Assembly (NCBI RefSeq): GCF_024298905.1 | Contig: NZ_CP101154.1 | Span: 62,001-126,000 of the forward strand | Direction: 5' to 3' | Length of the DNA stretch: 64,000 nucleotides | DNA from: Natronomonas marina | GTDB taxonomy: Archaea; Halobacteriota; Halobacteria; Halobacteriales; Haloarculaceae | Shown: positions 57,313 to 62,414 of the stretch, in pieces | How the letters are laid out: each line of letters begins with the position of its first letter | Numbering within the stretch: position 1 is the first letter of the stretch | Translations under genes and position numbers: made by a program | The notes under the pieces: model-generated | What the model was told of the DNA's origin: nothing | The model's database searches: none | The model's input: the letters and a program-made list of their open reading frames with translations, nothing else

Positions 57313-58764
57313 TTGTCTACAATTGACACACGCATCCCGCTCGGCATCGGCGGCGCCGACGAGGTGCTACACGGCGGCCTGCTGCCGGCGCGGTCGTACA
57401 TGCTTCGCGGCGAGGCCGGCACCGGCAAGACCATCTTCGGCTTCCACTACCTGACGACGGGCGTCGCGGCCGGCGAGTCCTGTCTGTTCGTCGCCTTCGA
57501 GGAACCGGCCGACGACATCCGGGAGAACGCCGAGACGCTCGGCTTCGACCTCGACGAGGTGGAGATACTGGACCTGAGCCCGGACGCGAGCAAGTTCCTC
57601 GAGGAGGAGCAGTACAGCGTCTTCGCGCCCGACGAGGTGGAGAACGAGTCGGTGACCGACCGCATCGTCGAGGCAGTCGAGCGGGTCGACCCCGACCGGG
57701 TGTTCGTCGACCCGCTGACCCAGCTACAGTACCTCTCGGCGGACGACTACCAGTTCCGCCAGGAGGTCGCCGGGCTGATGAGCTACCTCGAGAACCGGGG
57801 GGCGACGGTGCTCTTTACGACCCAGCCGACGCCCTCGCGGCCCGACGACGACCTCCAGTACCTCTGTGACGGGGCGCTCGCGCTGGAGCGCTCGGAGTAC
57901 GGCCGCTCGTTTTCGGTCCTGAAGTTCCGGGGGTCGGACTTCCAGGGCGGCAGCCACACGCTCCGCATCGACGGGACCGGGGTGTCGGTGTACCCGAAAC
58001 TGGTCCCCGGCGAGTACGACAGCGACTTCTCCGTCGAGCGGGTCGGCTCCGGCGTCGACGAACTCGACTCGCTACTCGGCGGCGGCATCGAGCGCGGCTC
58101 CGTCACGGTCGTCAGCGGCCCCAGCGGCGTCGGCAAGACCACCACCGGGACGCACTTCCTGACGGAGGCCGCCGCCCGCGGCGAGACGGCCGCCGCCTTC
58201 CTCTTCGAGGAGACCGAGTCGTCGTTCCGGCACCGCTCGGACGCCATCGGCCTCCCCACGGAGGAACTGATAGCCGACGGGGACCTGACGCTCGAGTACA
58301 TCGAGCCCCTGTCCATCTCGTCCGACGAGTTCGCCCACAAAGTCAAGACCGCCGTCGAGGACGAGGGCGCCAGCGTGGTGATGATAGACGGCACGGCGGG
58401 CTACCGGCTCTCCCTTCGGGGCCGGGAGGACGAACTCGTCTCCGAACTGCACGCGCTGGTCCGGTACCTCCGGAACGTGGGGGTGACGGTCATCCTCGCC
58501 GAGGAGGTCCGCAGCATCACCGGCGAGTTCCAGCCCTCCAGCGAGAACATCAGTTACCTGGCCGACAACATCCTCTTCCTCCGGTACCTGGAGGTCCGCG
58601 GCGAGATACGGAAGGCGGTCGGCGTCCTCAAGAAGCGGCTCGGGGACTTCGAGCCGACGCTCCGGGAACTGCGGATCACCGGCGACGGGATGTGGATCGG
58701 CGACCCGCTGGACGACCTCAGGGGCGTCCTGACGGGGACGCCGGAGTGGCGCGACGACGACTGA
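57313..58764 (+). CDS. KaiC-like two-domain RecA-family ATPase
   Basis: A 483-residue ATPase with two tandem RecA/KaiC domains: Walker A GEAGTGKT (33-40) and GPSGVGKT (269-276), each followed by a KaiC-type Glu pair (FVAFEEPA, near 63, and LFEETES, near 295). I chose the TTG at 57313 because a TATA-like ggatttatc (57278-57286) places the transcript start at about 57310; the GTG at 57262 lies before the promoter. Haloarchaeal KaiC-like proteins are linked to sensory transduction. The phosphorylated Ser-Thr pair of cyanobacterial KaiC is not recognisable. It is followed after 14 bases by the LOV histidine kinase. Confidence 0.88.
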   Translation: MSTIDTRIPLGIGGADEVLHGGLLPARSYMLRGEAGTGKTIFGFHYLTTGVAAGESCLFVAFEEPADDIRENAETLGFDLDEVEILDLSPDASKFLEEEQYSVFAPDEVENESVTDRIVEAVERVDPDRVFVDPLTQLQYLSADDYQFRQEVAGLMSYLENRGATVLFTTQPTPSRPDDDLQYLCDGALALERSEYGRSFSVLKFRGSDFQGGSHTLRIDGTGVSVYPKLVPGEYDSDFSVERVGSGVDELDSLLGGGIERGSVTVVSGPSGVGKTTTGTHFLTEAAARGETAAAFLFEETESSFRHRSDAIGLPTEELIADGDLTLEYIEPLSISSDEFAHKVKTAVEDEGASVVMIDGTAGYRLSLRGREDELVSELHALVRYLRNVGVTVILAEEVRSITGEFQPSSENISYLADNILFLRYLEVRGEIRKAVGVLKKRLGDFEPTLRELRITGDGMWIGDPLDDLRGVLTGTPEWRDDD

Positions 58765-58778
58765 CTGGTGAGACGGGA

Positions 58779-61724
58779 ATGAGCGACCACGAGCGAGCGG
58801 CACGGACCGTGCTCGAGGGGACCGACGAGCGGGTGCTCCTCTCGATGGCCGGCGAGCGCGACCGGGAACTGCTCGCCGGTCGACTCGGCGACCGCTACCG
58901 GGTGGTGGACGGCGACCCCGGGGAGTTCGACGCGTTCGACCTCTGTATCGTCGACGGGCCGACCTACCGCCGGGTCGAGGGCTCGCTCGCCGAGTTGAAA
59001 CGCGAGACGGAGGCGTACCTGCCGGTGCTGTTGCTCGTCGAGGACCGCGAGCGGGCCCGCGAGGCCGAGTGGATCACCGAGACCGTCGGTGGCACCGTCG
59101 ACGACGTGCTCGTGATTCCGACGCCGAAGCACGAACTCGACGCACGGATCGAAGCGATGCTGCGGGCACGCCGGCAGTCCCGGCGGCTGGCGCTGTACCG
59201 CCGGGCGATGGACGAGGCGTCCATCGGCATCAGCATCACCGACCCCGACCGGCCGGACAACCCCCTGGTGTACGTCAACGACGGCTTCTGCCGGCTCACC
59301 GGCTACGACCGGGAGGACGTCCTCGGGGAGAACTGCCGCTTGCTCCAGGGGCCCGACACCGAGGAGGCGACCGTCGACCGCCTCCGGGACGCCATCGCGG
59401 CCGGGGAGCCGGTCACCGTCGAGATACTGAACTACCGGGCGGACGGCGAGCCGTTCTGGAACCGCCTGACCGTCGCGCCGGTCCGCGACGATGACGGCGA
59501 GGTGTCTCACTACCTCGGCTTCCAGGAGGACGTCACCGAGCAGGTCGAACGCAAGCGGGAGGTGCGCCGCGAGCGCGAGCGGTTCGAGGCGCTGGCCCGG
59601 ACGGCGACCGACGCCATCCTCCTCGTCGACCCCGAGAGCACGGTCGTCTACGCCAACGCCGCCGTCGAGCGGGTCTTCGGCCACGAGCCCGCCGAAATCG
59701 AGGGCGAACCGCTGACGAAGCTGATGCCCGAGGGGCACCGGGACAGCCACCGCGAGGGCATCGAGCGCTACCTCGAGACCGGCGAGCGGGACATCGACTG
59801 GAACGCGGTCCGGTTCCCCGGCCTGCACGCCGACGGCCACGAGGTGCCGCTGGAGCTATCCTTCGGCGAGTTCGAGTGGGACGACGGGCGACTGTTCGCC
59901 GGCATCATCCGCGACGTCTCCGACCGGGTGGCACTCGAGGGCGAACTCCGGGAGGAGCGGGAACTGCTCGAACAGATATTCGAGACGAGTCCCGTCGGCA
60001 TCACAGTCGTCGACGCCGACGGCGACATCGTCCGCGCCAACGAGGCCGCCGAGGAAGAACTCGGACTCGAACGCTCCGAAATCACGTCGCGGACGTTCGA
60101 CACACCGGCGTGGGAGACGTTCGACGCCGACGGCGAGCCGATTCCGGCCGAGGAACTTCCGACCGCTCGCGTGCTTCGGACCGGCGAACCGGTCGAGGAC
60201 TACCGCCACGGCATCCGCGTCGACGGCGAAGAGCGGTGGCTGTCAATCAACTCCGCGCCCCTGACCGACGAGGCGGGCAACGTCGAGTCGGTGGTCAACG
60301 CGGTCCGGGACATCACCGACCAAACCGAGCGACAGCGGGAACTCGAACGGTACGAGACGCTCGTCGAGGCCATCGACGACGCGGCGTGGGCGTACGACGA
60401 GGACGGCTGTCTCTCGCTGGTCAACCGGGAGTTCCTCGACAACCTCTCGGTCCCCCGCGAGGCCGTCATCGGCGTCCACCTCTCGGAGTTCGAGTCGCTG
60501 TTCGCCGACCCCGGGGACTACGAGGAGTACCGGAATCTCGTCGAGGACCTGCTGGCCGGCCGGCGGGAGGAGGCCACCATCGACATCGAGTTGACGCTCC
60601 CCGACGGCCGCTTCGTCGCGAACCTGAGCCTCGCCTCGATACCCGGCGACGACGGCCCGGTCGGCGCGGCCGCCGTCGCCCGCGACATCACCGAACGGGT
60701 CGACCGCGAGCGGGACCTGAAACGGTACGAGACCATCGTCCAGACGACCCCGGACCCCATCTACGTCCTCGACCCCGAGGGCCGGTTCGTCCGCGTCAAC
60801 GACGCCATGGTCGAGGCCAGCGGCTACGACCGCGAGGACCTGATCGGGAACCACGCCTCGATGGTGGCCGACGAGGCGATGGTCGCCCGGGTCGAGGCGA
60901 TCATCCGGGATCTGCTGGCGGGTGACCGGGACCACGCGACCTTCGAGGGGTCGATGACCTTCGCCGACGACACCCGCCGCGAGTACTCGACCAGCCTCTC
61001 CCTGCTCCGGGAAGCGGGCGAGTTCAGGGGAACCGTCGTCGCTGCCCACGACGTGACCGACCTCCGGGACCACAAGCGTCGGCTGTCGGTGCTGGACCGG
61101 GTCCTCCGGCACAACCTCCGCAACCGGATGAACGTCGTCCTCGGCTACGCCAGGGAACTCGCCGACCACGACGACCCCGAGGTCGCCCACCTCGGAAGCG
61201 CCATCGCCGACAGTGCCGACGACCTGCTGGAGTTGAGCGAGAGCGCACGGGAGTTCGAGAGCGTCATCTCCGGGACCGCGGAGGCGACCACGACGATGGA
61301 CGTCGTCGCCCTGGTCGAGACCGCGGTCGCCGCCGCCCGGAGCGAGTACCCCGGAGCCGACATCTCCGTCGACTGTCCCGACGCCGCACACGCCAGAGCC
61401 CACGAGACCTTCGAACTCGCCGTCGAGGAACTGCTCGAGAACGCGATCACGCACTGCGACTGCGAGGACCCCACCGTCGAGGTGTCCGTCACGGTCGCCG
61501 ACGACGCGGTCCTGATCCGCGTCGCCGACGAGGGGCCCGGCCTCGACGACGTCGACCGGCGGGCGCTGCAGTCCGGCAGCGAATCGCCGCTGGAGCACAC
61601 CCAGGGGCTCGGCCTCTGGCTGGTCAAGTGGACCGTCGAGAGCGCCGGCGGCGAACTCGACATCGAGGCCCGCGAGCCACAGGGCACCGTCGTTACACTC
61701 TCGTTGCCGCGAGCGCCGCCGTAG
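58779..61724 (+). CDS. LOV/multi-PAS sensor histidine kinase
   Basis: A 981-residue soluble kinase. The first 130 residues form a degenerate receiver-like domain without the usual Asp pattern. The first PAS domain is a LOV domain: GENCRLLQG with adduct-forming Cys186, the FMN-contact NYRADGEPFWN and GFQEDVTE, so flavin-based blue-light sensing is expected. Four further PAS domains follow (about 265-385, 390-510, 515-640, 645-765). The kinase core (about 770-981) has the phosphoacceptor box LRHNLRNRMNVV, the N box ELLENAITH and DEGPGL. It is 14 bases after the KaiC-like gene, so probably co-transcribed. No response regulator is adjacent. Confidence 0.93.
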   Translation: MSDHERAARTVLEGTDERVLLSMAGERDRELLAGRLGDRYRVVDGDPGEFDAFDLCIVDGPTYRRVEGSLAELKRETEAYLPVLLLVEDRERAREAEWITETVGGTVDDVLVIPTPKHELDARIEAMLRARRQSRRLALYRRAMDEASIGISITDPDRPDNPLVYVNDGFCRLTGYDREDVLGENCRLLQGPDTEEATVDRLRDAIAAGEPVTVEILNYRADGEPFWNRLTVAPVRDDDGEVSHYLGFQEDVTEQVERKREVRRERERFEALARTATDAILLVDPESTVVYANAAVERVFGHEPAEIEGEPLTKLMPEGHRDSHREGIERYLETGERDIDWNAVRFPGLHADGHEVPLELSFGEFEWDDGRLFAGIIRDVSDRVALEGELREERELLEQIFETSPVGITVVDADGDIVRANEAAEEELGLERSEITSRTFDTPAWETFDADGEPIPAEELPTARVLRTGEPVEDYRHGIRVDGEERWLSINSAPLTDEAGNVESVVNAVRDITDQTERQRELERYETLVEAIDDAAWAYDEDGCLSLVNREFLDNLSVPREAVIGVHLSEFESLFADPGDYEEYRNLVEDLLAGRREEATIDIELTLPDGRFVANLSLASIPGDDGPVGAAAVARDITERVDRERDLKRYETIVQTTPDPIYVLDPEGRFVRVNDAMVEASGYDREDLIGNHASMVADEAMVARVEAIIRDLLAGDRDHATFEGSMTFADDTRREYSTSLSLLREAGEFRGTVVAAHDVTDLRDHKRRLSVLDRVLRHNLRNRMNVVLGYARELADHDDPEVAHLGSAIADSADDLLELSESAREFESVISGTAEATTTMDVVALVETAVAAARSEYPGADISVDCPDAAHARAHETFELAVEELLENAITHCDCEDPTVEVSVTVADDAVLIRVADEGPGLDDVDRRALQSGSESPLEHTQGLGLWLVKWTVESAGGELDIEAREPQGTVVTLSLPRAPP

Positions 61725-61748: not shown

Positions 61749-62012
61749 TCACCACCGGCGCGCCGTCCGGACCCAAAATTCCGCCCACAGCCGGATGTTC
61801 TCGGCGATGGACGAACCGACCGCCGGCTGCCGGTCGGTTCGAGCGGCGGGCCGGACGGCGACCTCCGCTCGACAGTCCGGACACAGATACCGGGTCCTGT
61901 GGCCCGTCTCGACGACCTGCCAGTCCCCGTCGGGACGGCTCCGGTGGCCGCAGTTCGGGCAGAACAGCGTCGACTTCGGCGGGACGTCGTCGGCGGACGG
62001 GCGAGACTCCAT
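61749..62012 (-). CDS. Small zinc-ribbon protein
   Basis: An 87-residue protein with two CxxC pairs, CPNC (about 18-21) and CPDC (about 44-47), a zinc ribbon of the type found in haloarchaeal small regulators. The C-terminal helix is aromatic-rich (IRLWAEFWVRTARRW). It lies 12 bases downstream of the 58-residue gene, on the same strand, and the pair probably forms an operon. I think it is conserved in haloarchaea but cannot name the family with certainty. Confidence 0.72.
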   Translation of the reverse strand: MESRPSADDVPPKSTLFCPNCGHRSRPDGDWQVVETGHRTRYLCPDCRAEVAVRPAARTDRQPAVGSSIAENIRLWAEFWVRTARRW

Positions 62013-62023
62013 CGACGGCCGAC

Positions 62024-62200
62024 TCAGCCGGCGGTCCGCTCGAGGGCCTCCCCGAGCTCCTCGCGCACCGGAATCCCGCGGGAGCGAAGCGCCGTCTTCA
62101 TCTTCGCCGTCGACACGCCGCCCCGGGCGGCCGCCCGCTCGAGGTCGAGCGTCCCGCTACGATACAGCGTCATCGCCGCCGTCAGTGACCTGAATGACAT
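62024..62200 (-). CDS. Small helix-turn-helix-like protein (DUF7317-like)
   Basis: A 58-residue protein, beginning MSFRSLTAAMTLYRSGTLDL and containing RAAARGGVSTAKMKTALRSRGIPV, a helix-turn-helix-like arrangement. The start at 62200 is preferred because the preceding frame is AT-rich promoter DNA (gattta near 62235). It resembles the DUF7317/UPF0175-type small proteins of haloarchaea; the identification is from memory. It precedes a zinc-ribbon gene by 11 bases. A DNA-binding role is plausible. Confidence 0.68.
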   Translation of the reverse strand: MSFRSLTAAMTLYRSGTLDLERAAARGGVSTAKMKTALRSRGIPVREELGEALERTAG

Positions 62201-62414
62201 CTGGCCTTCGGCCGAATAAATTCGGTACGAGTAGTTAAATCTTCTGCGAGAATAGATGCCATACAATAGGAGAAAATGAGTAGAAAAACGTCGATTGTTT
62301 TGATATATGTGGTAGAATAAGACGAACTTCTATCAGGCCTCCGAGGGAAAGAGACGTTCGATGCCGGCGGCGTCGCTGTCGCTCCGCGCTGCTCGCCGTT
62401 GGTTCGGGACGGAA
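62201..62414. other. AT-rich intergenic segment
   Basis: The stretch 62210-62335 is clearly AT-rich for this genome (for example ataggagaaaatgagtagaaa) and includes the promoter of the two small minus-strand genes. No protein gene is apparent. Low GC next to a tRNA gene with duplicated 3' end is what remnants of an inserted element often look like, but no integrase or ends are visible. Confidence 0.4.

Follow-up and report, generated by a model that had tools for sequence, protein, structure and literature searches.

What KaiC does outside the cyanobacteria is a long-standing open question. KaiC-like ATPases are reportedly signaling hubs in archaea, an idea put forward by Makarova in 2017 (as cited in PMC5847659). 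In Haloferax, four kaiC homologues show light-responsive expression, including cirC, which encodes a two-domain KaiC and lies next to a fixL gene (PMC3941300), and this expression constitutes the only related functional data. A pseudo-receiver is defined as a receiver fold in which at least one of the DD, D, T, and K residues is missing, and a 2025 review is aware of no published study of what any archaeal pseudo-receiver does (both PMC12632262). In the open-access literature, we found no paper that treats KaiC, haloarchaea, and LOV jointly. Here, we describe a haloarchaeal locus where a two-domain KaiC-like ATPase gene adjoins the gene of a sensor kinase with an N-terminal pseudo-receiver domain (PsR), which probably links KaiC to sensors and outputs that can be exchanged.

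A two-domain KaiC-like ATPase next to a sensor kinase

The window, i.e., the whole stretch of DNA that was analyzed (64,000 nucleotides of the Natronomonas marina contig NZ_CP101154.1), carries the two genes in tandem on the + strand, where all features described below lie unless stated otherwise. The first gene (positions 57313 to 58764; TTG start, 483 codons) encodes the KaiC-like ATPase, and the second (58779 to 61724; ATG start, 981 codons) encodes a sensor histidine kinase with the domain order PsR-LOV-PAS(x4)-HK. PF06745 matched two stretches of the first protein with 232 bits (cut-off, 26.6), which places it in the KaiC ATPase superfamily. We compared it with ~100 relatives, the KaiC homologues being taken from the family and the order at ~42 to 84% identity; the length and start position of its N terminus are about the same in relatives (30-row alignment A1). 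Walker A motifs are present in both CI (GEAGTGKT, residues 33 to 40; 57409 to 57432) and CII (GPSGVGKT, residues 269 to 276; 58117 to 58140), as are Glu pairs (CI, residues 63 and 64, 57499 to 57504; CII, residues 299 and 300, 58207 to 58212), with K39, E64, K275, and E300 each found in 104 of 104 archaeal homologues. Both ATPase domains look active. The original prediction was thus correct in describing a tandem KaiC-like gene with both Walker motifs and Glu pairs, followed 14 bases later by the start of the kinase gene (58764 to 58779). In public plasmid records, several two-domain KaiC relatives are annotated as gvpD (H3, H4, H10, H18, and H32) or as “gas vesicle protein GvpD” (H19 and H20); the KaiC model fits the window protein far better than the GvpD model does.

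In the CII segment that aligns with the phosphosites of KaiC (58537 to 58566), S409 takes the T426-like position, S414 the S431-like position, and Y415 the T432-like position. The first of these is T or S across homologues, while S414 is kept in 103 of 103 and Y415 in 98 of 103 archaeal homologues, i.e., the Ser is retained and the Thr is replaced by Tyr. Bacterial homologues carry Ser in 12 of 14 and Tyr in 12 of 14 cases at the same two sites, and Tyr at the second phosphosite is also present in some KaiC3 (PMC5520375). This conserved S-Y pair in a two-domain KaiC would fit a light-entrained timer, whether hourglass or circadian, built from KaiC and a LOV kinase without KaiA and KaiB, as would the kinase activity of archaeal KaiC homologues without KaiA (PMC5520375) and the light-responsive and rhythmic expression of the Haloferax volcanii cir genes, which is disturbed by cir deletion (PMC3941300). 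We nevertheless consider such a timer decidedly unlikely. The phosphosite is S-Y and not S-T, the best KaiB match in the whole genome reached 12.4 bits against a cut-off of 27 (all matches being sub-threshold), and the KaiA-binding C-terminal tail is missing, with residue 478 aligning with residues 490 to 495 of KaiC and the protein ending at residue 483. Because no KaiB exceeds the cut-off and the KaiA-binding tail is lacking, a clock is not supported by the sequence, and the absence of kaiB that had been foreseen holds genome-wide. The window KaiC also scored below the cut-offs of two models for the circadian clock protein KaiC (TIGR02655, 161.5 bits against an equivalog cut-off of 546.25; PRK09302, 255.7 bits against 408).

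The LOV domain and the kinase core

Profile searches of the kinase revealed five PAS-type stretches in all and a HATPase_c domain, and found no GAF domain. The first PAS stretch is a LOV domain (residues 138 to 262; 59190 to 59564; TIGR00229) with Cys186 as the adduct residue. Its motif GENCRLLQG (residues 183 to 191; 59325 to 59351) shows one F-to-L change relative to GXNCRFLQ, and all ten flavin-contact positions checked (T, N, N, C, R, Q, R, N, N, and Q) are present and largely kept in relatives, which confirms the canonical LOV domain with adduct Cys that had been proposed. The domain aligns with the YtvA model (182 bits) and with a blue-light histidine kinase model (158 bits), in both cases under the whole-protein cut-off. 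Blue-light sensing by this domain is likely, since the motif and flavin contacts are present and a haloarchaeal LOV domain, when expressed, was found to photocycle at up to 3 M salt (PMC12202551).

Four further PAS domains follow (residues ~264 to 390, 395 to 515, 530 to 644, and ~650 to 768, the last boundary being approximate; 59568 to 61082; PAS_9/TIGR00229), and then a sequence motif for an H-box, RHNLRNR (61107 to 61127), with His778 as the putative phospho-acceptor. The HisKA match remained at 18 bits against a cut-off of 26.9, and the HATPase_c catalytic domain (61410 to 61715; PF02518) scored 58.6 bits against 26.4. As predicted, the pair has no response regulator gene as a direct neighbor. 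Two genes on the − strand come after it, encoding a small zinc-ribbon-like protein (61749 to 62012) and a DUF7317/UPF0175-like protein (62024 to 62266), neither of which we see as part of the module.

The N-terminal domain of the kinase is a pseudo-receiver

The original prediction overlooked the N-terminal ~135 residues of the kinase, a stretch without any Pfam match that holds a separate domain of receiver fold. This PsR domain of ~125 amino acids (residues 15 to 137; 58821 to 59189) was modeled by AlphaFold2 as a receiver fold with a pLDDT of 88.9; a VIA fold comparison of the model with receivers such as KdpE yielded Z scores of up to 15.6, and the Foldseek matches listed were receivers or proteins that contain one. 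The pseudo-receivers of CikA and KaiA were absent among the fold matches listed, a list that is filled by close receiver structures and hence uninformative on this point. PF00072 gave no match at E values up to 1 in any of 50 PsR members, and no Pfam family for PsR was found. With positions set by eye from secondary structure and motif, the DD acid pair and the Thr and Lys catalytic positions are not kept, whereas a phospho-acceptor-like Asp59 is kept in 47 of the 50 members, and Asp54, Pro82, and Arg123 are invariant (n = 50). Asp108 and Pro114 are conserved PsR residues as well. The missing catalytic residues and the PF00072 non-match rule out a canonical receiver, and because a receiver fold is combined with the loss of the DD, T, and K positions, the domain is a pseudo-receiver by the published definition (PMC12632262). 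AlphaFold2 modeling of residues 1 to 269 (mean pLDDT 86.7, pTM 0.64) further predicts a single helix running from PsR α5 into the LOV N-cap (residues 117 to 146; 59127 to 59216).

Conservation of the gene pair

Among the haloarchaea sampled, 65 KaiC homologues are followed directly by a partner gene like that of the window (median gap of 2 bp, 54 within 30 bp), and a divergent partner at 73 to 380 bp was found for 16 more. Conserved co-location in other haloarchaea, which had been set beforehand as a refutation test for the predicted pair, is thus what we observed. Outside the haloarchaea, the pairing occurs in Cyanobacteriota, Chloroflexota, and Armatimonadota: A scan of named genomes revealed same-group KaiC proteins (47 to 52% identity) with a partner alongside in Anaerolineae, Lyngbya, Hyella, Phormidesmis, and Armatimonadetes, and in Acaryochloris the partner is divergent from KaiC. 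The KaiC of the gammaproteobacterium Halothiobacillus (48% identity) also has an adjoining partner, and more distant proteobacterial KaiC proteins (33 to 36% identity) showed no clear PsR partner.

Across 78 evenly sampled genomes, we detected 63 strong PsR matches, 54 of which lie no more than 2.5 kb from a two-domain KaiC. This count has to be read with two biases in mind, as the profile was built from KaiC neighbors and related genomes are not independent. Conversely, 52 of the 57 KaiC genes in the PsR-bearing genomes had a PsR within 2.5 kb. A hand tally of the 78 genomes, uncorrected for kinship, gave 44 with both, 3 with PsR only, 2 with KaiC only, and 29 with neither. Conservation in tens of genomes puts the pairing far beyond what chance would give, and its distribution indicates that it is old. 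Operon history alone could in principle account for the co-location, with proteins that do not act together, and our search of the open-access literature found no direct interaction evidence for any organism. This explanation is highly improbable, however, as the pairing persists across phyla, in co-directional and divergent arrangements, and as PsR stays constant while sensor and output change.

Several loci deviate from the simple pair. A tandem pair of PsR proteins after one KaiC is seen in L069, L077, L111, L115, and L144, the last being H. larsenii, where KaiC is followed by the two PsR proteins. None of the loci examined contained a fused KaiC-PsR open reading frame (ORF); an apparent read-through ORF in L063 was rejected as a fusion on account of a stop codon between the two genes. 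Where KaiC has no PsR partner, the next gene downstream frequently encodes a short receiver-like protein (L033:1118-1516, L021, L095, L102, and L122), and the one such protein that was scanned, in L033, matches PF00072. Five bacterial loci (L125, L126, L127, L128, and L142) show the order KaiC, short receiver-like protein, PsR-kinase, and this three-gene arrangement may be an ancestral module. At L096:6526-7122, a PsR-LOV kinase is broken into two ORFs by a frameshift or sequencing error.

Sensors and outputs vary around a constant PsR

Alignment of the partner proteins (A2) showed that their first ~125 residues are alike, while the remainder is variable. Among 103 partner ORFs (a few loci being near-duplicates), 46 have a LOV domain with the adduct Cys, 12 have a LOV domain without it, and 45 have no LOV domain, which rules out LOV as the constant partner of KaiC. 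The LOV-KaiC pairing that had been suggested is present in this genome, but LOV does not define the partner, since nearly half of the partners do without it; as far as the sequences tell, the constant element beside KaiC is usually PsR. Because LOV is missing from so many partners, light is not a fixed input, which likewise argues against the light-entrained timer.

PsR is fused to kinases with LOV, PAS, or GAF domains, to bare kinases, to Bat-type HTH regulators, and to a GGDEF-EAL enzyme, with histidine kinases as the commonest output. BAT-HTH_10 regulators are the output in L055 and L100 (the L113 sequence ends after the start of BAT), L138 has a HisKA_2/HWE-type kinase, and in the cyanobacterial L126 to L128, PsR is fused straight to the kinase core with no sensor found. 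At L134:6405-8729 (a Halothiobacillus MAG), a PsR-GAF-GGDEF-EAL protein is encoded next to KaiC and ties this KaiC group to cyclic-di-GMP.

The signal most likely flows from KaiC to the PsR protein and on to its output, because the PsR of relatives is joined to a DNA-binding regulator or a cyclic-di-GMP enzyme in place of a kinase. In the reverse direction, light would act through the LOV kinase to set the phosphorylation or ATPase state of KaiC, with KaiC as the output hub; the LOV sensor does sit in the kinase and not in KaiC, and the pseudo-receivers of KaiA and CikA serve clock input in cyanobacteria (PMC12632262). Yet, HTH_10 or GGDEF-EAL partners have no kinase with which to act on KaiC. 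Ser and Tyr, moreover, are not usual targets of histidine kinases, and overall, we judge the reverse direction to be unlikely.

KaiC is a sensor of ATP/ADP, which would also suit a module that reports energy or redox state, with LOV mainly sensing redox or oxygen. Ten rows of the KaiC tree have partners that keep the flavin pocket with the Cys replaced by Pro, His, Met, or Tyr, and Cys-less LOV proteins still signal, through flavin photoreduction (PMC4682037). Against this, the window LOV keeps the adduct Cys, as do 46 of the 58 partner ORFs that have a LOV domain, and photocycling has been shown for a haloarchaeal LOV domain (PMC12202551), which makes a mainly redox-sensing role improbable. 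Loci with such a Cys replacement (Pro, His, Met, or Tyr) and retained flavin contacts are L045, L035/L124, L091, L042, L110, L084, L086, L079, L080, L081, and L114, on several separate branches.

In the KaiC tree (108 rows, built by a quick method and with some long branches), no PsR neighbor was detected for 11 of the 108 KaiC proteins; PsR presence requires at least 6 changes, and the LOV state at least 7 among PsR-bearing rows. The window KaiC belongs to a supported 40-row group, with 29 LOV, 8 Cys-less LOV, and 3 without LOV. For 83 pairs, KaiC distances correlated with those of PsR at a Mantel r of 0.50 and with those of the kinase core at 0.23. In the subset of 59 LOV pairs, the values were 0.52 for PsR, 0.52 for the kinase core, and 0.43 for LOV, so the notion that PsR alone co-evolves with KaiC was not upheld there. 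Support from co-evolution for a KaiC-PsR coupling is hence moderate.

Discussion

We infer a scheme where KaiC and the kinase would form one signaling module, with the KaiC-type ATPase, presumably hexameric, as the state-holding part whose CII domain may autophosphorylate at S414/Y415. PsR would be the coupling part, binding KaiC physically or reading its state and relaying that state to the output to which it is fused. Blue light, acting via LOV and the predicted continuous PsR-LOV helix, would alter the relay of the KaiC state to the kinase core, and the core in turn would phosphorylate response regulators encoded elsewhere, such that the signal would run from KaiC through the pseudo-receiver protein to the output. 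This reading, with the KaiC state read by PsR and relayed to the kinase and LOV adding light control, is one that we hold to be slightly more probable than not. Counting against it, 11 of the 108 KaiC proteins in the tree lack a detected PsR neighbor, no KaiC-PsR fusion was found, and PsR and the kinase core track KaiC to an equal degree among the LOV pairs. Of the light or day-night module in the original prediction, a conserved module and a LOV domain with every sequence feature of a blue-light receptor stand, and day-night timing gained no direct support.

For one widespread group of two-domain KaiC proteins, the locus provides a specific partner domain that can be tested, together with an entry point for light. 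If confirmed, this would define a KaiC pathway for haloarchaea, including the genetically tractable Haloferax if CirC belongs here, and would assign a function to an archaeal pseudo-receiver. The Haloferax volcanii CirC/fixL pair resembles the window pair, as far as its published description goes, in that a two-domain KaiC adjoins the gene of a PAS sensor kinase, and cirC responds to light-dark cycles (PMC3941300). Haloarchaeal LOV kinases such as ALovD-1 (PMC12202551) similarly place LOV inside REC/PAS multidomain kinases and include Cys-to-Pro variants; the ALovD-1 paper differs in that it does not discuss KaiC neighbors.

The KaiABC-SasA-CikA clock likewise combines KaiC with kinases that have N- or C-terminal adaptor domains, and both KaiA and CikA contain pseudo-receivers. 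Here, in contrast, KaiB is under the cut-off, KaiC lacks the KaiA-binding tail, and the phosphosite is S-Y. SasA, whose layout is resembled by the cyanobacterial bare PsR-histidine kinase partners (L126 to L128), has a KaiB-like (thioredoxin-type) N-terminal domain, whereas the window kinase, adjoining kaiC, has a receiver fold. CikA is a phytochrome-like GAF kinase with a C-terminal pseudo-receiver, whereas the window kinase carries PsR at its N terminus and has no GAF. The locus shares with the hubs of Makarova 2017 the general idea of archaeal KaiC proteins linked to two-component systems, and, set against that general idea only, PsR as a KaiC partner appears, with some reserve, to be undescribed. 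Slightly short of even odds, in our estimation, is the broader proposal that PsR represents a hitherto undescribed family that serves as a dedicated archaeal and bacterial adaptor of KaiC to exchangeable sensors (LOV, PAS, and GAF) and outputs (kinase, HTH regulator, and cyclic-di-GMP enzyme), an architecture apart from that of KaiA, KaiB, and SasA and possibly related to the adoption of pseudo-receivers by KaiA and CikA.
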